Shown here one piece after another: positions 7,920-40,660 of a DNA stretch of 40,660 nucleotides; positions within the stretch are counted from its first letter, which is position 1; each line of letters opens with the position of its first letter. The notes under the pieces were generated by a model. It saw nothing but the letters and a program-made list of their open reading frames with translations. It had not been told where the DNA came from and did not search any database. This DNA is from Bdellovibrio sp. (lineage in GTDB: Bacteria > Myxococcota > SpSt-1050), in contig DYEF01000040.1 in the NCBI GenBank assembly GCA_020725805.1, forward strand, positions 1 to 40,660, in the 5' to 3' direction. Made by a program: the position numbers and the translations under genes.

Positions 7920-9149
7920 TTACTGAAAGAAGAGTACTTCTGAAATACAGGTCCGGGGATTTTTCTTGTTACTCCCTTTGTCAACCTTATCGATCAGAAT
8001 TTCGACTGAATATGTGACGGTGTTTTCCTCAAAATAGACCATATACTGAAACGCACCCTGCGTCTCTGCCCTGGCCGACTCGGTAACACCAAGAACGGGG
8101 GAAGATACCGTATTATACTTACCCTTCACTATCTGTGATTCGGAGCCGTTGGAGAGTCTTACTGAAAATGCCGTAATCCTGTTGTTGGGTTCCCACGAAT
8201 CCTCCGTATCCATACAACCCGGAATGAGTATCATAGCCTTTATGGACTGATTTCCGTCAAATTCGAAACGGATACTCTCTTTAGAGTTCTTCTTTGCCTT
8301 TGATGGGTCGGGAGACCAGCTTGAGCCTATATTACCGTCAGATGCCCACTTTGCGGGATTGAGTATCTCCGGCTCTGCCTTTTCACCCTTCTTTGCCTTT
8401 TTTGGTTTTTCAGAGAGTTCACTCGATGCCTCGACACTCTTAATCTTAACCGGCGATAAAAAGTTTACAACCTTGGGATTCTCATCCTTTACGAATGCAC
8501 CGCTCTTGTATCTGTAAATATCATACACCCCACCGTATATTACCGTTACCGGAGGTTTGGTATGACCGAAATACACAAGCTTCTTCTCTCTGGGAACCAG
8601 TATCTCCTTCGAACCGTTCTTATCCTCGTCGACTAGATTGATTCCCTCCTTTATCTCACCGTACTGTATAATTTTTTCAGCAGAAGAAGCGGCCTCGGAT
8701 TTCGAAAAATAATAACTGCCCTCAAATACCTTCTTAAAAACCGTGCCGTAGGAGGCAATTATAATCAGATGACTCCCGTTTTCATCCGGAGATTCATCCC
8801 TGAGCCATATCAACAGGTCCGCCCTCTTATCTCCGGTAACATCATCGATCTCGTACTTCTCAAGGGTAAATCCCTCTTTTATTTTGTATTCGATCATCTC
8901 CTGATAATTCTTCTTATCATCCGTCGCCTTGAGTACAATAAAGGATTTCTTATCCTTCTCCCGGTTTAAGAGCAGTATCACCTCCTTGATATTGTCACCA
9001 TCCATCTCTGTGAAATCTTCAGAGACAATCTCAGCTTTCTTCTTCATCAGTTCCTTGTAATAGGAGCTGCTCTTCAACGGGACCGTCTCCTGTGCATAGA
9101 GAGTCTGGCACAAAAAAGACACAAGGAAAAGGACCGATAAATATCTCAT
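7920..9149 (-). CDS. Secreted protein with FG-GAP-like repeats and a C-terminal NADase-type glycan-binding domain
   Basis: A signal peptide ends near residue 19 (…TLYAQE), so the protein is exported. Residues about 40-200 contain Asp/Gly loops such as DVTGDKRADLLIW and DEDKNGSKEILV, like calcium-binding FG-GAP/propeller repeats. A Lys/Glu-rich hinge (about 247-262) follows. The C-terminal 150 residues match the discoidin-like 'NADase-type glycan-binding' domain: a KWASDGNIGSSW-type start, IRFEFDG, NNRITAFSVRLSNGS and the closing CISEVLFF. That family is known from surface and secreted proteins and is a sugar-binding fold, not an enzyme. AGGAGG precedes the ATG. It is monocistronic, divergent from the Cys-rich gene at 9268. 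The domain call is from memory of the family pattern; the cellular role is unknown. Confidence 0.7.
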   Translation of the reverse strand: MRYLSVLFLVSFLCQTLYAQETVPLKSSSYYKELMKKKAEIVSEDFTEMDGDNIKEVILLLNREKDKKSFIVLKATDDKKNYQEMIEYKIKEGFTLEKYEIDDVTGDKRADLLIWLRDESPDENGSHLIIIASYGTVFKKVFEGSYYFSKSEAASSAEKIIQYGEIKEGINLVDEDKNGSKEILVPREKKLVYFGHTKPPVTVIYGGVYDIYRYKSGAFVKDENPKVVNFLSPVKIKSVEASSELSEKPKKAKKGEKAEPEILNPAKWASDGNIGSSWSPDPSKAKKNSKESIRFEFDGNQSIKAMILIPGCMDTEDSWEPNNRITAFSVRLSNGSESQIVKGKYNTVSSPVLGVTESARAETQGAFQYMVYFEENTVTYSVEILIDKVDKGSNKKNPRTCISEVLFFQ

Positions 9150-9212: not shown

Positions 9213-9241
9213 TTGACAATACACTTTATACCTCATAATAT
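9213..9241 (+). promoter_or_regulatory. Strong predicted promoter of the Cys-rich secreted protein gene
   Basis: TTGACA (9213-9218), a 17-base spacer and TAATAT (9236-9241) make one of the best consensus promoters in the window. The predicted start site is near 9248, just before the ACGGAGG ribosome-binding site (9256-9262) and ATG (9268). Confidence 0.72.
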
Positions 9242-9267
9242 CCGTCAATCATCTTACGGAGGTTCTG

Positions 9268-9633
9268 ATGAAGAGATTAATTACATTACTGATTGTATTC
9301 ATCTTTGCTTTTACCGCCTTTAATCTGTATGCCGCAAAAGATGAGAATACGGCGCAAAAAGCAGAGGCGAAGTGTAACTGTGGTACAAAAGACTGCAAAT
9401 GCGGTTCAGCAGATAAAGGGTGCAACTGCTCCAGTGAAAAATGTAACTGCAAGGAGAAAAACTGCAACTGCAAAAATTCCGGAAAATGTCAGAACTGCGA
9501 CAAAAATTGTCCTCACAAATGCAAAAACAATGACGGGCATAAATGTAACTGCGGTTACTGCGGCAGCGAAAGTACAGAGACTGAAAAGGAACACGACTGC
9601 CCGCACAAAAACAAAAATTTCCCTCAGGAATAA
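9268..9633 (+). CDS. Secreted metallothionein-like Cys-rich protein with CNC repeats
   Basis: A 121-residue protein with a clear signal peptide (residues 1-22, ending LYA). The mature part has 18 cysteines in about 100 residues, mostly as CxC pairs: CNC, CKC, CNC, CNC, CNC, then CQNC, CPHKC and CNCGYC. Lys, Asn, Asp, Glu and a few His fill the gaps; aromatic residues are almost absent. This is metal-thiolate-type composition, like metallothioneins, but with an export signal, so it would act outside the cytoplasm. I recognise no named family. A near-consensus promoter and a good ACGGAGG site suggest high expression. It is the only plus-strand gene in the first 15 kb and faces queH head-on 36 bases downstream. 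Metal binding is inferred from composition; a disulfide-linked surface protein is the alternative. Confidence 0.75.
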   Translation: MKRLITLLIVFIFAFTAFNLYAAKDENTAQKAEAKCNCGTKDCKCGSADKGCNCSSEKCNCKEKNCNCKNSGKCQNCDKNCPHKCKNNDGHKCNCGYCGSESTETEKEHDCPHKNKNFPQE

Positions 9634-15462: not shown

Positions 15463-15987
15463 ATGAAGGCATATAGGGAATCATTATTTGTAGCGGTTGT
15501 TGTAATTATCCTTTTGGTACTTTATTCCTGTTCATCGGACACCTCGGGGGCAAGCTGTGAAACCGACCAGCAGTGCCCGAGCGGTCAGTACTGCGGTGAA
15601 GACAAGATATGCCATAAAGGTTCAAAGCCTCTAAAAGATGCAGGTATTGATGCCGGGTCTGATGCGGGAAAAGACGCTGGAAAGGATGCCGGAAAGGACG
15701 TGGAATCTGACACTATTTCTGATATACAGGATGACATTCAGGAAGATGTCTTTACTGATGCGGGCGAAGATGCCGGAACAGATGTTTTGGATGATGTTTC
15801 AACGGATGTTTCGGAAGATACGGGAAATGATGTTACTATGAACGTCTTTATCCCCTCGGTATACGATATGGCTGCCGGAACAGTTAAAGCCGGCGATTAT
15901 ACAGTCAAAGCAATAACAGGCACAAGTGCCAGAACTGTAATAGATGCAAAGGACGTAAAAAATTATAGCACCAAAAAATCCAAATAA
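15463..15987 (+). CDS. Asp-Ala-Gly repeat lipoprotein
   Basis: A 174-residue predicted lipoprotein. A hydrophobic segment ends in the lipobox LYSC (Cys23). The mature N-terminus has a small Cys module, CETDQQCPSGQYCGEDKIC, of a type common in Myxococcota surface proteins. An acidic low-complexity stretch follows (about 58-128), made of DAG-K/DAG-S tetrapeptides and then Asp-Val/Asp-Ile repeats, and ends in a short non-repetitive domain (about 125-174). Residue +2 after the lipid cysteine is Ser, not Asp, which by the enterobacterial rule favours sorting to the outer membrane. CAGGAGG precedes the ATG. The next gene starts 18 bases downstream, so the two probably form a bicistron. No enzymatic function is visible. 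Confidence 0.78.
   Translation: MKAYRESLFVAVVVIILLVLYSCSSDTSGASCETDQQCPSGQYCGEDKICHKGSKPLKDAGIDAGSDAGKDAGKDAGKDVESDTISDIQDDIQEDVFTDAGEDAGTDVLDDVSTDVSEDTGNDVTMNVFIPSVYDMAAGTVKAGDYTVKAITGTSARTVIDAKDVKNYSTKKSK
15637..15696 (+). repeat. Five 12-base tandem repeats coding DAGx
   Basis: Five consecutive units of the pattern GAYGCNGGNNNN (best form GATGCCGGAAAG) encode the DAGI/DAGS/DAGK tetrapeptides. The units differ mainly at third positions, so this is an older repeat kept for its protein sequence, though copy number could still change by slippage without a frameshift. Confidence 0.75.
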
Positions 15988-16005: not shown

Positions 16006-17889
16006 ATGAAAGGAAAATTGTTTTTTGTGATCATTATGTTGCTGGCTGTCAATCTCTATGCGGTTCCGGGATTCATCGTTCATCAGGGTTATATGGAGGA
16101 TTCCGAAGGAAACCCGGTAAATGGTGTAATGACCATAATCATTGCAATCTACGGAAGTCCTGACGGGAATGACATGCTCTTCGAACAGGTACTTGATGTG
16201 GCAGTAAAAGACGGCTTCTACTCGGCTGAAATTAATCACGAGGCTATTATGCCTTTATTTGATGTCGACAAGAATCTCTTTCTGGAAATATCCGTAGGCA
16301 GCAACAAAGGAAAACCGAGACAGAAAATCGGCTCTGTTCCATATGCATTCTATGCAGCAAAGGCTTATGATGTAATCGGAGACATCCATCCTGACAGCAT
16401 CTACATAAACGGCAACAAAGTCATCGATGAGACCGGCAAATATATGGGCCCGATCAATGCCGTTACAAGCATAACTGCCGGCGACGGATTAAAAGGCGGG
16501 ACAATTACAGGTACGGGCACCATTGCACTTGCAGACGAATACAAGGATGGTTCTGTCTATGACAGCAGATTTGTTAACACTAACGAAGCCTCAAGTATAT
16601 CTTCCGGTATGCTCATGGACAATTCAGTAACTTCAAGTAAGATAGCGAACGGTTCTGTACTATTCCAGCACATTACGCCCTGCGGCAACGGTGAGATAAT
16701 GAAATACAACAGCACAACAGGATGGGGATGTGCCTCTGACCTGAACAATACCTACATCGCTGGCACAGGGATGATACTCACAGGAAATGCTTTTTCGGTA
16801 GAATTTGACGGTACCGGTACAGCCAAAACAGTTGCCAGAAGTGACCATAATCATGACTATGCATACTCGAGCATATATCACAATCACGATAGCTCTTATG
16901 TAAATGTAAAAGGTGATACAATGGTTGGTAAATTGGCTATTAATATCGATCCCGCAAATGATACTCCTATTGCACTCATTACCTCAAACGGTTCAGTTCT
17001 CTTTGAAGGACCGGATGGTATAACTCCTGTAAAAGGGGCCGGAATAAGGCTGATGTGGGTCCCCTCAAAGAAGGCATTGAGAGTAGGTGAGGCAGTATCG
17101 GATGAATGGGATGATACCAATATCGGAAATTATTCCTATGCATTTGGTTCAAACGTTACGGCGAGCGGGGATTTGAGTTTTGTATTCGGAGATTCAAACA
17201 ATTCATCCGCAACAAGGGCCTTTATTGCCGGCGTAAAGAATTCAGCCTCTGGAGATTTGATAAGTATTCTGGGACATGGCAACAGAGCCAGTGGCAGCGA
17301 TAACTATATAGTTGGATATGCAAACAGAATCGATGGTATCCAGAATTATGCAGTAGGAAACGAAAACGACACAGATTCCACGGCATCAGAGACCTATGCA
17401 ATGGGAAATAGAATATCCTTTGCCAATGCATCAAAGTCCGTCGGTATAGGTTCGTATATGAGCATATCTTCTTCAAATTCAGTTACAATCGGTAAAGGAG
17501 ACGACTCATCAGCTATAGGAGGACCCCTGACAAATGACACACCTAACTCTTTGATGGTTGGATTCAACTCGACACAGCCTACTCTCTTTGTAGGACCGTC
17601 AGGTGGCGGCACCACAACAGGAAATGTCGGTATAGGCAACAAAGACCCTGTTTCAAAACTGGATATCGAAGGTGGTGTAAGAACAAGACCTTCCGTTCTT
17701 AAATTTGACAGTCTCAACTCCAATTCTACAACAACATACACACCTATTAACCCGAATTATTCCTGTGATTCGAAGAACAGAGGCGAGATCAGGGTATTTA
17801 CCGTAACACCTTCTGTCGGAGTGGAATTTGATGCCCTTTGTGCTTGTCTGAAAGAGGGAAATAAATATTTCTGGAATTGCTTCAAATAA
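16006..17889 (+). CDS. Secreted tail-fibre/YadA-like surface protein
   Basis: A 627-residue exported protein with a signal peptide (about 1-19, ending LYA). The N-terminal module (about 20-125) is a beta-rich domain often seen in bacterial tail-fibre-like proteins, ending SVPYAFYAAKA. The middle has fibre-type segments (AGDGLKGGTITGTGTI) and two HNH clusters near residues 281-300, like the HxH sites that bind metal in trimeric phage fibre tips. Residues about 375-520 show the 14-15-residue beta-roll repeats of YadA-type adhesin heads (YAFGSNVTASGDLSFVFG). NVGIGNKDPVSKLDIEG (about 540-556) is typical of fibre shafts. The last 45 residues form a four-cysteine domain (…CDSKNRG…CACLKEG…WNC). There is no trimeric autotransporter anchor, so attachment may depend on the lipoprotein encoded just upstream. 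A phage origin is unlikely; no other phage genes are nearby. Confidence 0.75.
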   Translation: MKGKLFFVIIMLLAVNLYAVPGFIVHQGYMEDSEGNPVNGVMTIIIAIYGSPDGNDMLFEQVLDVAVKDGFYSAEINHEAIMPLFDVDKNLFLEISVGSNKGKPRQKIGSVPYAFYAAKAYDVIGDIHPDSIYINGNKVIDETGKYMGPINAVTSITAGDGLKGGTITGTGTIALADEYKDGSVYDSRFVNTNEASSISSGMLMDNSVTSSKIANGSVLFQHITPCGNGEIMKYNSTTGWGCASDLNNTYIAGTGMILTGNAFSVEFDGTGTAKTVARSDHNHDYAYSSIYHNHDSSYVNVKGDTMVGKLAINIDPANDTPIALITSNGSVLFEGPDGITPVKGAGIRLMWVPSKKALRVGEAVSDEWDDTNIGNYSYAFGSNVTASGDLSFVFGDSNNSSATRAFIAGVKNSASGDLISILGHGNRASGSDNYIVGYANRIDGIQNYAVGNENDTDSTASETYAMGNRISFANASKSVGIGSYMSISSSNSVTIGKGDDSSAIGGPLTNDTPNSLMVGFNSTQPTLFVGPSGGGTTTGNVGIGNKDPVSKLDIEGGVRTRPSVLKFDSLNSNSTTTYTPINPNYSCDSKNRGEIRVFTVTPSVGVEFDALCACLKEGNKYFWNCFK

Positions 17890-23144: not shown

Positions 23145-23693
23145 ATGAAAGGCAGAGATGAATCTTTCGAGATTCTCAGGCAGAAAGTAAAGACAAAGAA
23201 TCTGATAAAACATATGCTCGCTGTAGAGGCAATAATGAAAGGGCTTGCAGAAAAATTCGGAGAGGACAAGGAGATATGGGGACTTGCGGGACTTATGCAC
23301 GATATAGATATCGATGAATACGGAAAGGACCCAACAAAACACGGAAAAATCGGGGCTGAGTGGCTAAAGGAAATGGGTTATGAAGAGCATATTGTAAATG
23401 CAGTACTCGCACACGCAGGGCACAAGATCCCTGAAAACCGTTTGGAGATTTCACTCTTTGCATCCGACCCTCTCTCGGGACTGATAATATCTGCCGCACT
23501 GATTCATCCTTCAAAAAAACTTTCGTCAATCGATACAAACTTCGTAATAAACCGTTTTGGGGAGAAGAGATTCGCCGCGGGCGCAAGGAGAGAGGATATC
23601 AAGAGGTGTGAAGATATCGGACTCTCTCTCGAGGAATTCATTACAATCGCTCTTAACTCAATGAAAGGGATATCAGATGAACTCGGCCTATAG
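23145..23693 (+). CDS. HD-domain phosphohydrolase
   Basis: A small HD-superfamily protein (182 residues), probably a metal-dependent phosphohydrolase. His23 (KHMLAVEA), the His52-Asp53 pair in LMHDIDID, and His90/His93 in LAHAGHKI give the metal-ligand pattern of HDIG-type proteins of the COG2316 kind. Substrate is unknown; relatives hydrolyse nucleotides. It starts four bases after the NamZ gene, with AGGAGTAGG-like sequence upstream, and its 3' end overlaps the following lipoprotein gene by 17 bases. Confidence 0.82.
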   Translation: MKGRDESFEILRQKVKTKNLIKHMLAVEAIMKGLAEKFGEDKEIWGLAGLMHDIDIDEYGKDPTKHGKIGAEWLKEMGYEEHIVNAVLAHAGHKIPENRLEISLFASDPLSGLIISAALIHPSKKLSSIDTNFVINRFGEKRFAAGARREDIKRCEDIGLSLEEFITIALNSMKGISDELGL

Positions 23694-25389
23694 AATATTC
23701 GTATCTCTTGTTCTACTGCTGACCATAGTCTGCTGCACGGAAGCAATAACAGTGGAGGAATACGACACAAATCAGACAAAAGATACCAGAACGACCGATA
23801 CTCTCAGGGATACAGGCGAAGATGAAGAGTATATCGATATCCGTTCAGAAGATAGTGAAACGCAGGATATCACAGACATTCAGGACGCAGAAGCTGACAC
23901 CGGTTCCGAAGATATTATAAATCTGAATGAAGACCCGGAAAACTGCGGTTCTGTCGGTTTTGTATGTAAAGAGCACATAAATGCCGATAACCCGAACGGC
24001 AATCCTACCTCTGTCCTGTGTGTTGCAGGCAACTGCGTCGTCGAAATATGTATCCCCGGACGGGCTGACTGCAACAACAAATATGAAGACGGGTGCGAGA
24101 CATACTCCGGCTCTGACCCCGAAAACTGTGGTTACTGCGGCAACAAATGCCAGTTTACAAATGCAATATCCGATTGCCAGTTTTCCACCTGTTCACTGGT
24201 AAAATGCAACAAACCGTTTGCCAACTGTGACCAGAAGATTTCAAACGGGTGCGAGACCGATACCTCGAAGGATATCAACAACTGCGGGATGTGCCATAAG
24301 GTCTGCGCATTTCAGAACGCAAATTCTGAGTGCGTAAATTCGGAGTGCAAGTTTCTGGGATGCAAACCCGGCTTTATCGACCTGAACGGGAATATCAAGG
24401 ACGGCTGTGAATATCAGTGCACAGTCTCCAATAACGGAGTTGAAGCCTGTGACGGAAAGGACAACAACTGTAACGGATTTATCGACGAGACCTGTTCCTG
24501 CACAAACGGAAGTAAAATGCCCTGCGGCTTCAATCTGGGCAGATGCAGGGAAGGTTACTACGAATGTATTGGCGGTGTCTGGGATACTACCTGCAAGGGT
24601 TCTGTCGGTCCTGTCTTCGAGGAATGCAATAACGTCGACGACGACTGTAATGGGGTGACAGATGACAATCTCTACAGGGAGTGTCAGGGGAGTGATGCCA
24701 GTCTCTGCAATTCACCCTGCGGTATAGGATACGAATATTGTGAAAACGGGGTCTGGAAGAGATATAATCCTCCGCAACCCTCAAAGGAAATCTGTAACGA
24801 AAAGGATGACGACTGCAACGGTCTGACCGACGAGGGGACGGCTGAGTGTCCGTCCGATATGGCGGCAGTCGGGCTGTGTCTCTGCATCGACAGGTTCGAG
24901 GCATCGAGGCCGGATGCAACAGACAAATCGGCGGGAGTAAATAACAGTTATGCTACATCAAGGGCAGGGGTCTTGCCTTGGACAGACGTAGACTGGAATA
25001 CAGCCGATAAGGCCTGCAAAGCGGCCGGCAAAAGACTCTGCACCGCGGAGGAATGGAGAAGAGCCTGTCAGGGCGAAGGAGGATATGTATATCCGTACGG
25101 GAATACCTACGACCCGGCGATATGCAACGGCTCGGACGACCCGAACCCGGGAAATGTCTTCCCGGCCGGTACATACACAAAGTGCAAATCGGCATATGGT
25201 GTCTTCGATATGAGCGGGAATATCGAAGAGTGGAATGCGACAGATTATCCGGACGGCAAAAAGGGTCTGAGAGGCGGTTCATATCTGAACGGGACAGAGT
25301 TGTTTACCAAATGTGCCTATGATGCGCCACCGGTCAAGGCAGATTTTACGAGCAGAACAATAGGATTCAGGTGTTGTAAAAAGCCATAA
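23677..25389 (+). CDS. Lipoprotein with NCGxC repeats, MopE-type motifs and a C-terminal FGE-like domain
   Basis: A 570-residue predicted lipoprotein; the signal ends LLTIVCC (lipid Cys19 or 20). An acidic Asp/Thr linker (about 21-85) leads to Cys-rich modules with PENCGYCGNKC (148-158) and INNCGMCHKVC (200-210). Three MopE-type motifs (CDGKDNNCNGFIDE and relatives) lie at 258-271, 317-330 and 373-386; this motif is annotated as a putative metal-binding site after the copper protein MopE. Residues about 392-570 are a formylglycine-generating-enzyme/SUMF1-like domain (CIDRFEASRP, GKRLCTAEEWRRAC, YPYGN, GVFDMSGNIEEW, LRGGSY, IGFRCC). In such lipoproteins this fold is not known to be catalytic. 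It overlaps the HD gene by 17 bases. A second, simpler FGE-like lipoprotein is at 29831. Confidence 0.85.
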   Translation: MNSAYRIFVSLVLLLTIVCCTEAITVEEYDTNQTKDTRTTDTLRDTGEDEEYIDIRSEDSETQDITDIQDAEADTGSEDIINLNEDPENCGSVGFVCKEHINADNPNGNPTSVLCVAGNCVVEICIPGRADCNNKYEDGCETYSGSDPENCGYCGNKCQFTNAISDCQFSTCSLVKCNKPFANCDQKISNGCETDTSKDINNCGMCHKVCAFQNANSECVNSECKFLGCKPGFIDLNGNIKDGCEYQCTVSNNGVEACDGKDNNCNGFIDETCSCTNGSKMPCGFNLGRCREGYYECIGGVWDTTCKGSVGPVFEECNNVDDDCNGVTDDNLYRECQGSDASLCNSPCGIGYEYCENGVWKRYNPPQPSKEICNEKDDDCNGLTDEGTAECPSDMAAVGLCLCIDRFEASRPDATDKSAGVNNSYATSRAGVLPWTDVDWNTADKACKAAGKRLCTAEEWRRACQGEGGYVYPYGNTYDPAICNGSDDPNPGNVFPAGTYTKCKSAYGVFDMSGNIEEWNATDYPDGKKGLRGGSYLNGTELFTKCAYDAPPVKADFTSRTIGFRCCKKP

Positions 25390-29256: not shown

Positions 29257-29574
29257 ATGAAGAAGGTAGCTATTTTATCAGTCTTTGCAGCATTAGTTAT
29301 TGCTGCAGCATTTCTGGCACAGTGCGGTGATGACAAGAGCCCCTGTGAGGAACTTGCAGACAAGATTATGGATTGTATGAAGACAGCATGCAAAGGCAAG
29401 ACAGACTGTGCAGCCTGCAAATGTATAAATGACCCCAAGGCAGAAGGCTGTTCAGACAGCGGTACCACCACTGAGGCAAAGTGCGAAGGTGATACCAAGA
29501 CCGCAGCTGAAGCTGCACTTAAGGATTTCAAGTGCGACACATATGATGCAGCCATCAAACTGGCCTGCCCCTAA
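29257..29574 (+). CDS. Small Cys-rich lipoprotein
   Basis: A 105-residue secreted protein. I use the ATG at 29257 because AAGGAGG precedes it; an earlier in-frame ATG would lie over the promoter. The hydrophobic signal ends FLAQC, with Gln at -1 of the lipid cysteine, an uncommon but possible lipobox. Ten further cysteines follow in about 85 residues (SPCEEL, MDCMKTAC, TDCAACKC, and so on), so the mature part is probably a disulfide-bonded small fold. Ala, Lys and Asp are frequent. It resembles abundant small lipoproteins of Myxococcota-type genomes, but I know no named family. It is monocistronic between its own promoter and a strong terminator. Confidence 0.8.
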   Translation: MKKVAILSVFAALVIAAAFLAQCGDDKSPCEELADKIMDCMKTACKGKTDCAACKCINDPKAEGCSDSGTTTEAKCEGDTKTAAEAALKDFKCDTYDAAIKLACP

Positions 29575-39741: not shown

Positions 39742-40660
39742 TTACTGACAGGGATTACCGGCGTTGTTGTCGCAGATTACCCAGTCATAACCCATCATCA
39801 TAACATTCGAAAGGGTACCAGTTGTCGGGGCCTTACCACCGGTACCAACGGCTGTGAAGTTGATTGTTCCTTCAATACCAAGTGCGTGGAGCATAGCCTT
39901 GACTGTGTTGTATGATGAATCAACAACAATCTCATAGACTACCGGCTGAACCTTTTCGCCAATCTGCTGTGAACCAACGACATGTGCCGACGGGTCAATG
40001 ATTATGTTATACAGATATACTATCTTCTTGGTCTGGAGTTTCGATGTGTCATAGATCTGGACAATCCAGAATGTACCGTCTGTATCCACAATCTCGAAGT
40101 CACCAACGCACATAGTGAAGTTGTACGAAATGCCGCCAAGTGTGAACTTGATGCTGGCTGTTCCGGGCTGATCTGTCTGACCGGGCTCTTCACCATCCTT
40201 GTAGGATTTGCAGTTTGAGAATGTACCGTTGGCAATGGTGGTTACCTCAAAGCATGCACCCTGACCCTGCATCCAGCCTATACACTGCTGGGTGGAGGAA
40301 CATACTGTCTGGTCATTTGTACAATCCTTGTAGCACTTCGAATCCTTCTGGTCCTGAGCAAGTGTTACGCAGGCAAGCCCTTCACAGCAGGGTTTGTTGT
40401 CGATGTTACATGCAGCACCTTCGCTGCTTACACACTGTCCAGTGCTCTCACACTTCCATGTGGTCTGGTTGCAGGTCTCGTTGGCATTTGCACATGCAGT
40501 GCACTTACCGCCGCAGCCATTGTCATCACCGCAGAACTTGCCGGTGCAGTTCGGTGTACAACCACTTTCGCACTTCCATGTGGTCTGGTTGCAGGTCTCG
40601 TTGGCATTTGCACATGCCGTGCACTTACCGCCGCAGCCGTTGTCATCACCGCAGAACTTG
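39742..40660 (-). CDS. Cys-rich repeat secreted protein (3' part, start outside window)
   Basis: The frame is open to the window edge, so this is a partial gene of at least 305 residues; a start at the internal ATG at 40272 is unlikely because the Cys-rich sequence continues in frame upstream of it. The visible N-terminal part holds two 40-residue repeats starting KFCGDDNGCGGKCTACAN, then CNQTTWKCES. A further Cys-rich segment (CNIDNKPCCEGLACV, CYKDC, CIGWMQGQGAC) follows. Such CGxDGCGG-type repeats are common in Myxococcota surface proteins. The C-terminal 170 residues are a beta-rich domain with few cysteines that I do not recognise. Export is inferred from the cysteine content. A strong terminator follows. 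Confidence 0.8.
   Translation of the reverse strand, partial: KFCGDDNGCGGKCTACANANETCNQTTWKCESGCTPNCTGKFCGDDNGCGGKCTACANANETCNQTTWKCESTGQCVSSEGAACNIDNKPCCEGLACVTLAQDQKDSKCYKDCTNDQTVCSSTQQCIGWMQGQGACFEVTTIANGTFSNCKSYKDGEEPGQTDQPGTASIKFTLGGISYNFTMCVGDFEIVDTDGTFWIVQIYDTSKLQTKKIVYLYNIIIDPSAHVVGSQQIGEKVQPVVYEIVVDSSYNTVKAMLHALGIEGTINFTAVGTGGKAPTTGTLSNVMMMGYDWVICDNNAGNPCQ
40421..40660 (-). repeat. Two 120-base tandem coding repeats
   Basis: Positions 40451-40540 and 40571-40660 are 90 bases long, offset by exactly 120, and differ at only two sites (40498/40618 and 40519/40639). The remaining 30 bases of each unit diverge. The array probably continues outside the window. Confidence 0.9.

Follow-up and report, generated by a model that had tools for sequence, protein, structure and literature searches.

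A candidate Sec-exported, metallothionein-like CxC protein encoded in a Bdellovibrio sp. genome (Myxococcota)

The gene at 9268..9633 and its product

The window, i.e., the whole stretch of DNA that was analysed (40,660 nucleotides; Bdellovibrio sp., contig DYEF01000040.1), contains a plus-strand gene at 9268..9633 for an apparently exported, cysteine-rich CxC protein of 121 amino acids with 18 cysteines (Cys protein). The open reading frame is a real gene, as read from its sequence and from a syntenic ortholog in a sister species. Its translation consists of MKRLITLLIVFIFAFTAFNLYA, which ends at the predicted cleavage point after LYA, followed by AKDENTAQKAEAKCNCGTKDCKCGSADKGCNCSSEKCNCKEKNCNCKNSGKCQNCDKNCPHKCKNNDGHKCNCGYCGSESTETEKEHDCPHKNKNFPQE, a mature part of 99 residues. 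All 18 cysteines (ca. 18% of the mature chain) are located in this mature part, with none before residue 36. These numbers agreed with a preliminary description of this DNA, which had reported a signal peptide followed by 18 cysteines in about 100 residues and a near-absence of aromatics; two aromatic residues occur in the 99 mature residues.

A cysteine-rich body (9370..9564, plus strand) contains 17 of the 18 cysteines and all six CxC motifs, and includes a core, DKxxCxCxxEKCxC, in common with the ortholog. Five of the six CxC motifs are CNC (shuffle mean 0.44, P = 0.0001), and CC pairs are absent from the mature chain (shuffle mean 3.1, P = 0.023), which also has two CxxC motifs. Linkers between the CxC motifs are made up of Lys, Asn, Glu, and Ser. 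The earlier characterization of the cysteines as mostly CxC pairs applied to the N-terminal two thirds of the protein, the remainder having CxxC and single cysteines instead. A C-terminal motif, HDCPHKNKN, is encoded at 9592..9618 (plus strand); its CPHKNKN part is the same in the ortholog, where three codons differ synonymously. In a generic test for metallothionein composition (small, cysteine-rich, CxC/CC/CxxC arrays, few aromatics), the Cys protein showed the expected features, with the exception of CC. An AlphaFold model built from a two-sequence alignment was of low confidence (pLDDT 44) and placed no helical bundle after the signal peptide.

The signal peptide (9268..9333, plus strand) starts with MKRLITLLIV and has neither a twin arginine nor a lipobox. 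Cleavage by signal peptidase I probably occurs after NLYA (residue 22), a site that was assigned by eye from the sequence, the LYA motif of the window, and the ortholog. The same LYA ending was found in other exported proteins encoded in the window: a BamA-type protein at 493-2874 (NLYA) and the products of 7920-9149 (TLYA) and 16006-17889 (NLYA). Because of this shared cleavage motif, and because the signal peptide is retained in the ortholog, the export proposed in the preliminary description is well supported as a prediction from sequence.

Upstream of the gene, a promoter-like site, TTGACA-17-TAATAT, was identified at 9213..9241 (plus strand) by consensus match only, and a Shine-Dalgarno sequence, GGAGGT, at 9259..9264 (plus strand). 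Start codon, reading frame, Shine-Dalgarno sequence, and TTGACA are all preserved in the ortholog. The promoter had previously been called near-consensus, which is correct for the -35 element, a perfect match kept in the sister species, but less so for the -10 element, which fits at four of six positions at a spacing of 17 bp; moreover, the number of promoter-like sites in the region (two) was at the level expected by chance (2.6 in shuffled DNA). No metal-responsive operator was recognised near the gene. A conserved block, TTTATCAAATAAA, was considered as a metal operator and rejected: it reads TTGATA on the minus strand and TTGACA on the plus strand and fits the back-to-back -35 boxes of a divergent gene pair equally well, so no regulator is claimed.

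Elsewhere in the window, a small putative lipoprotein (LAQC; 29257-29574, plus strand) has 11 cysteines in 105 residues, with a different spacing and a single CxC, and is probably disulfide-bonded. Tandem cysteine-rich repeats, CTPNCTGKFCGDDNGCGGKCTACANANETCNQTTWKCES, are encoded at 39742-40660 (minus strand), where the gene is cut off at the contig end. A lipoprotein-like protein (15463-15987, plus strand) has DAGxDAGKDAGKDAGKD repeats of Asp, Ala, Gly, and Lys after a short cysteine-rich segment.

An ortholog in a sister species and searches for further relatives

Among 97 relatives that were searched, an ortholog was found at the same genomic place in a metagenome-assembled genome, 'Deltaproteobacteria bacterium isolate SKW273' (G001, contig JAOAFA010000111.1), the only other genome of the genus in the set. 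The ortholog has 126 residues and 14 cysteines and is 36-39% identical to the Cys protein. Gene order is common to both species and comprises genes for a Ctp protease, QueH, the Cys protein, and a discoidin-like protein. With 39% identity in the pairwise alignment, as compared to 68-81% for its neighbours, the Cys protein is the fastest evolving protein at the locus. Signal peptide, CxC style, the core DKxxCxCxxEKCxC, and the C-terminal HxCPHKNKN are nevertheless fixed between the two orthologs, whereas the middle part is poorly conserved.

Conservation of cysteines in relatives had been proposed as a check on the preliminary description. This check was passed only in part: it yielded one homologue, in which 12 cysteines aligned with those of the Cys protein, a number barely above that obtained with shuffled sequences (mean 9.3, P = 0.05). 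Between these two sequences, cysteines are thus conserved in style, with differences in overall number and spacing. CNC was also enriched in the ortholog (P = 0.02), and CC was absent from both proteins. All histidines were located within two residues of a cysteine (4/4 in one ortholog and 5/5 in the other, P = 0.12 and 0.013, respectively). In the two sequences available, CxC/CNC bias, absence of CC, and cysteine-adjacent histidines would suit a thiolate metal binder.

No relatives beyond SKW273 were found by protein or profile searches of 195 Myxococcota genomes, nor in viral contigs and plasmids. A search of GTDB genome contigs returned 127 pattern matches, among which SKW273 alone was confirmed as a relative. 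G002, a genome from the same order, has the discoidin-like neighbour but lacks the gene. Several weaker candidates were discarded: an in-genome match (G000:C24) lies inside a long open frame (592 aa) of another gene, a match in G007 contains two stops, and N-terminal-only matches reflected signal-peptide similarity.

The Cys protein matched no Pfam family at E<=10, metallothionein profiles included, showed NCBIfam matches at chance level only, and gave no match in PDB with either the whole protein or the mature chain, in searches with HMMER, which handles such compositions poorly and whose composition filters may hide such sequences. The earlier statement that no named family fits the protein therefore held in all three databases. 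The metallothionein profile PF02069 was found in none of 58 genomes of the phylum, including this one, with a positive Synechococcus control, and titles and abstracts of the open-access literature yielded neither a bacterial metallothionein with a signal peptide nor any myxobacterial metallothionein.

A second exported CxC family in Myxococcota

When 189 genomes of the phylum were scanned with a DNA pattern that encodes one CNC and then two CxC motifs, a different small exported protein was encountered in several genomes of one family (f9). In a profile search, this second CxC family was found as one copy each in 87 of 195 Myxococcota genomes, all belonging to f9 and covering 20 genera; a further weak match (G003) contained a stop. 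Its members include L051:1393-1671, L045:1381-1659, L047:1390-1851, L049-L054, and L068-L097. The sequences that were read, eleven of which were aligned, showed a signal peptide, a seven-cysteine module, CxC-x5-CTC-x4-CxC-x2-C, and a tail, ARxDAxxGxF[IL]. The same seven cysteines were present in 31/31 sequences that were read. In genera g84 and g71 they are the only cysteines of the mature chain, an odd number that makes full intramolecular disulfide pairing impossible; members from g45 have one additional cysteine upstream. In L045, L047, L051, and L052, the gene is located between genes for a methyltransferase-like and a multi-pass membrane protein.

No clear match of the second family was found in Pfam and NCBIfam, the best metallothionein match (PF02066, E = 0.011) being below the cut-off. 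Its cysteine spacing resembles that of the vertebrate metallothionein beta domain (CxC-x5-CTC-x3-CKCKxC), but a PDB search with the 25-residue myxobacterial module, a composition of the kind that HMMER handles poorly, returned nothing to confirm this likeness.

The second family resembles the Cys protein in having a signal peptide and a short cysteine-rich module that opens with CNC or CxC, and in occurring in the same phylum. It differs in its single seven-cysteine module, invariant spacing, and conserved tail, and is absent from this genome. Only short CNC stretches aligned (BLASTP E = 0.01), and the two proteins are apparently unrelated. Exported CxC proteins thus recur in Myxococcota, most members of one large family having retained the seven-cysteine form and this genus having the many-cysteine form.

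Possible function of the Cys protein

Compared to known systems, the Cys protein is reminiscent of generic CxC-rich metallothioneins in its small size, cysteine content, repeated CxC motifs, scarcity of aromatics, and lack of a predicted apo fold. It differs from them by its signal peptide, by the absence of CC and of a profile match, and in that its metal binding is putative. Chlamydial outer-membrane-complex proteins of the OmcA type are likewise small, exported, and cysteine-rich; however, OmcA is a lipoprotein and the Cys protein has no lipobox. With SmtA, BmtA, and PmtA (PF02069) it shares the features of a small Cys/His-rich bacterial protein, but it has a Sec signal and no match to their profile; PmtA has been reported on the cell surface of P. 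aeruginosa even though it lacks a signal peptide (PMC11237414). Csp1 is an exported, cysteine-rich extracytoplasmic copper store, a role comparable to that of a candidate metal buffer, but it has a Tat signal and holds its cysteines within a rigid four-helix bundle (PMC7558416), neither of which was seen in the Cys protein or its low-confidence model. Judged by its sequence, the Cys protein is a candidate exported metallothionein-like protein that appears to fit neither PmtA nor Csp1.

The most likely reading, to which we assign an even chance, is that the Cys protein acts as a Sec-exported metal-thiolate buffer. After export by the Sec route, signal peptidase I would free it into the periplasm, as neither lipobox nor anchor is present. 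The mature chain, probably unfolded without metal, could then wrap soft metal ions with its CxC thiolates and neighbouring histidines, and thereby buffer Cu(I), Zn(II), or an ion of similar kind outside the cytoplasm, in the manner of a metallothionein. The CxC style, few aromatics, absence of CC, and histidines beside cysteines are consistent with metal binding. Fast divergence, with signal peptide, CxC bias, and C-terminal motif kept, is what one would predict for a metallothionein-like chain, where the supply of thiols matters more than their exact spacing. A metal buffer is further favoured by the presence of Cu-ATPases in both species and of metal-RND-type pumps in this genome, by the recurrence of a second exported CxC family in the phylum with an odd cysteine number in g84 and g71, and by the low CxC content of those exported cysteine-rich proteins of the window that are presumably disulfide-bonded, such as the product of 23677-25389 (two CxC in 50 cysteines). 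The metal handling at the periplasm or surface that had been suggested previously is plausible and partly supported, with export and CxC style in its favour. No metal gene adjoins the Cys-protein gene, its neighbours being those for QueH, the Ctp protease, and the discoidin-like protein, and a VKOR is encoded. Even cysteine counts (18 and 14), mostly unconserved spacing, and the lack of a metallothionein profile or PDB match also argue against a metal buffer.

A homologue of VKOR, a disulfide-forming enzyme, is encoded in both this genome and its sister, and periplasmic thiols could therefore be oxidised. This makes a disulfide-rich envelope protein, in which intra- or intermolecular bridges stiffen or cross-link the envelope or merely stabilise the protein outside the cell, a serious rival, if an unlikely one. 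It would agree with the even cysteine counts in both orthologs, with export, and with the many other cysteine-rich exported proteins of the window. However, CNC far above chance combined with low spacing conservation would be unusual for a fixed disulfide fold, hydrophobic residues for a core are almost absent, and the window's other proteins with presumed disulfides are not rich in CxC. We consider it quite improbable that the Cys protein is mainly a sacrificial thiol pool that scavenges periplasmic oxidants or reactive electrophiles. High thiol content and variable spacing fit such a role, and surface metallothionein PmtA has been reported in oxidative-stress protection (PMC11237414), but thiols alone would require neither CxC nor flanking histidines, and no partner gene for a thioredoxin-like protein, a peroxidase, or a reductase was found alongside. 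Least probable is a lineage-specific, fast-drifting protein that has no strong role and is kept by low-complexity CNC/K codon expansion. Its occurrence in only two species, low complexity, and poorly conserved middle part point in that direction, yet signal peptide, start region, -35 element, CxC style, and CPHKNKN persist despite 36% identity, and synonymous changes occur inside CPHKNKN. A RiPP precursor was dismissed, as no maturation enzyme is encoded nearby.

Metallothioneins are regarded as cytosolic because periplasmic thiols oxidise easily. If both CxC proteins bind metal, they would represent a periplasmic or extracellular class of metallothioneins for which no curated family exists, and Myxococcota may keep metals at an extracytoplasmic site, as metallothioneins rarely do. 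Tentatively, and with somewhat less than even confidence, we suggest that Myxococcota evolved Sec-exported metallothioneins at least twice independently, as a many-cysteine, fast-evolving form and as a single-module, seven-cysteine form. Recurrent and uncatalogued, these proteins would exemplify an extracytoplasmic thiolate buffer unlike the helical Csp1, and, through the conserved myxobacterial family, the idea can be tested in organisms that are in culture.

Two further cysteine-rich proteins were observed in the genomes compared. At L048:1387-3054 and downstream (G175:C3), an exported protein of >550 aa has runs of aromatic-rich CNCYNY/CNCYWY repeats followed by many NCGxCG-type repeats. 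In a small-genome relative (L057:1327-1611), a small protein has a LiaF-like transmembrane region and then a cysteine-rich tail, CNCCMKSGSCSCGRSDCKCCSKSSC.
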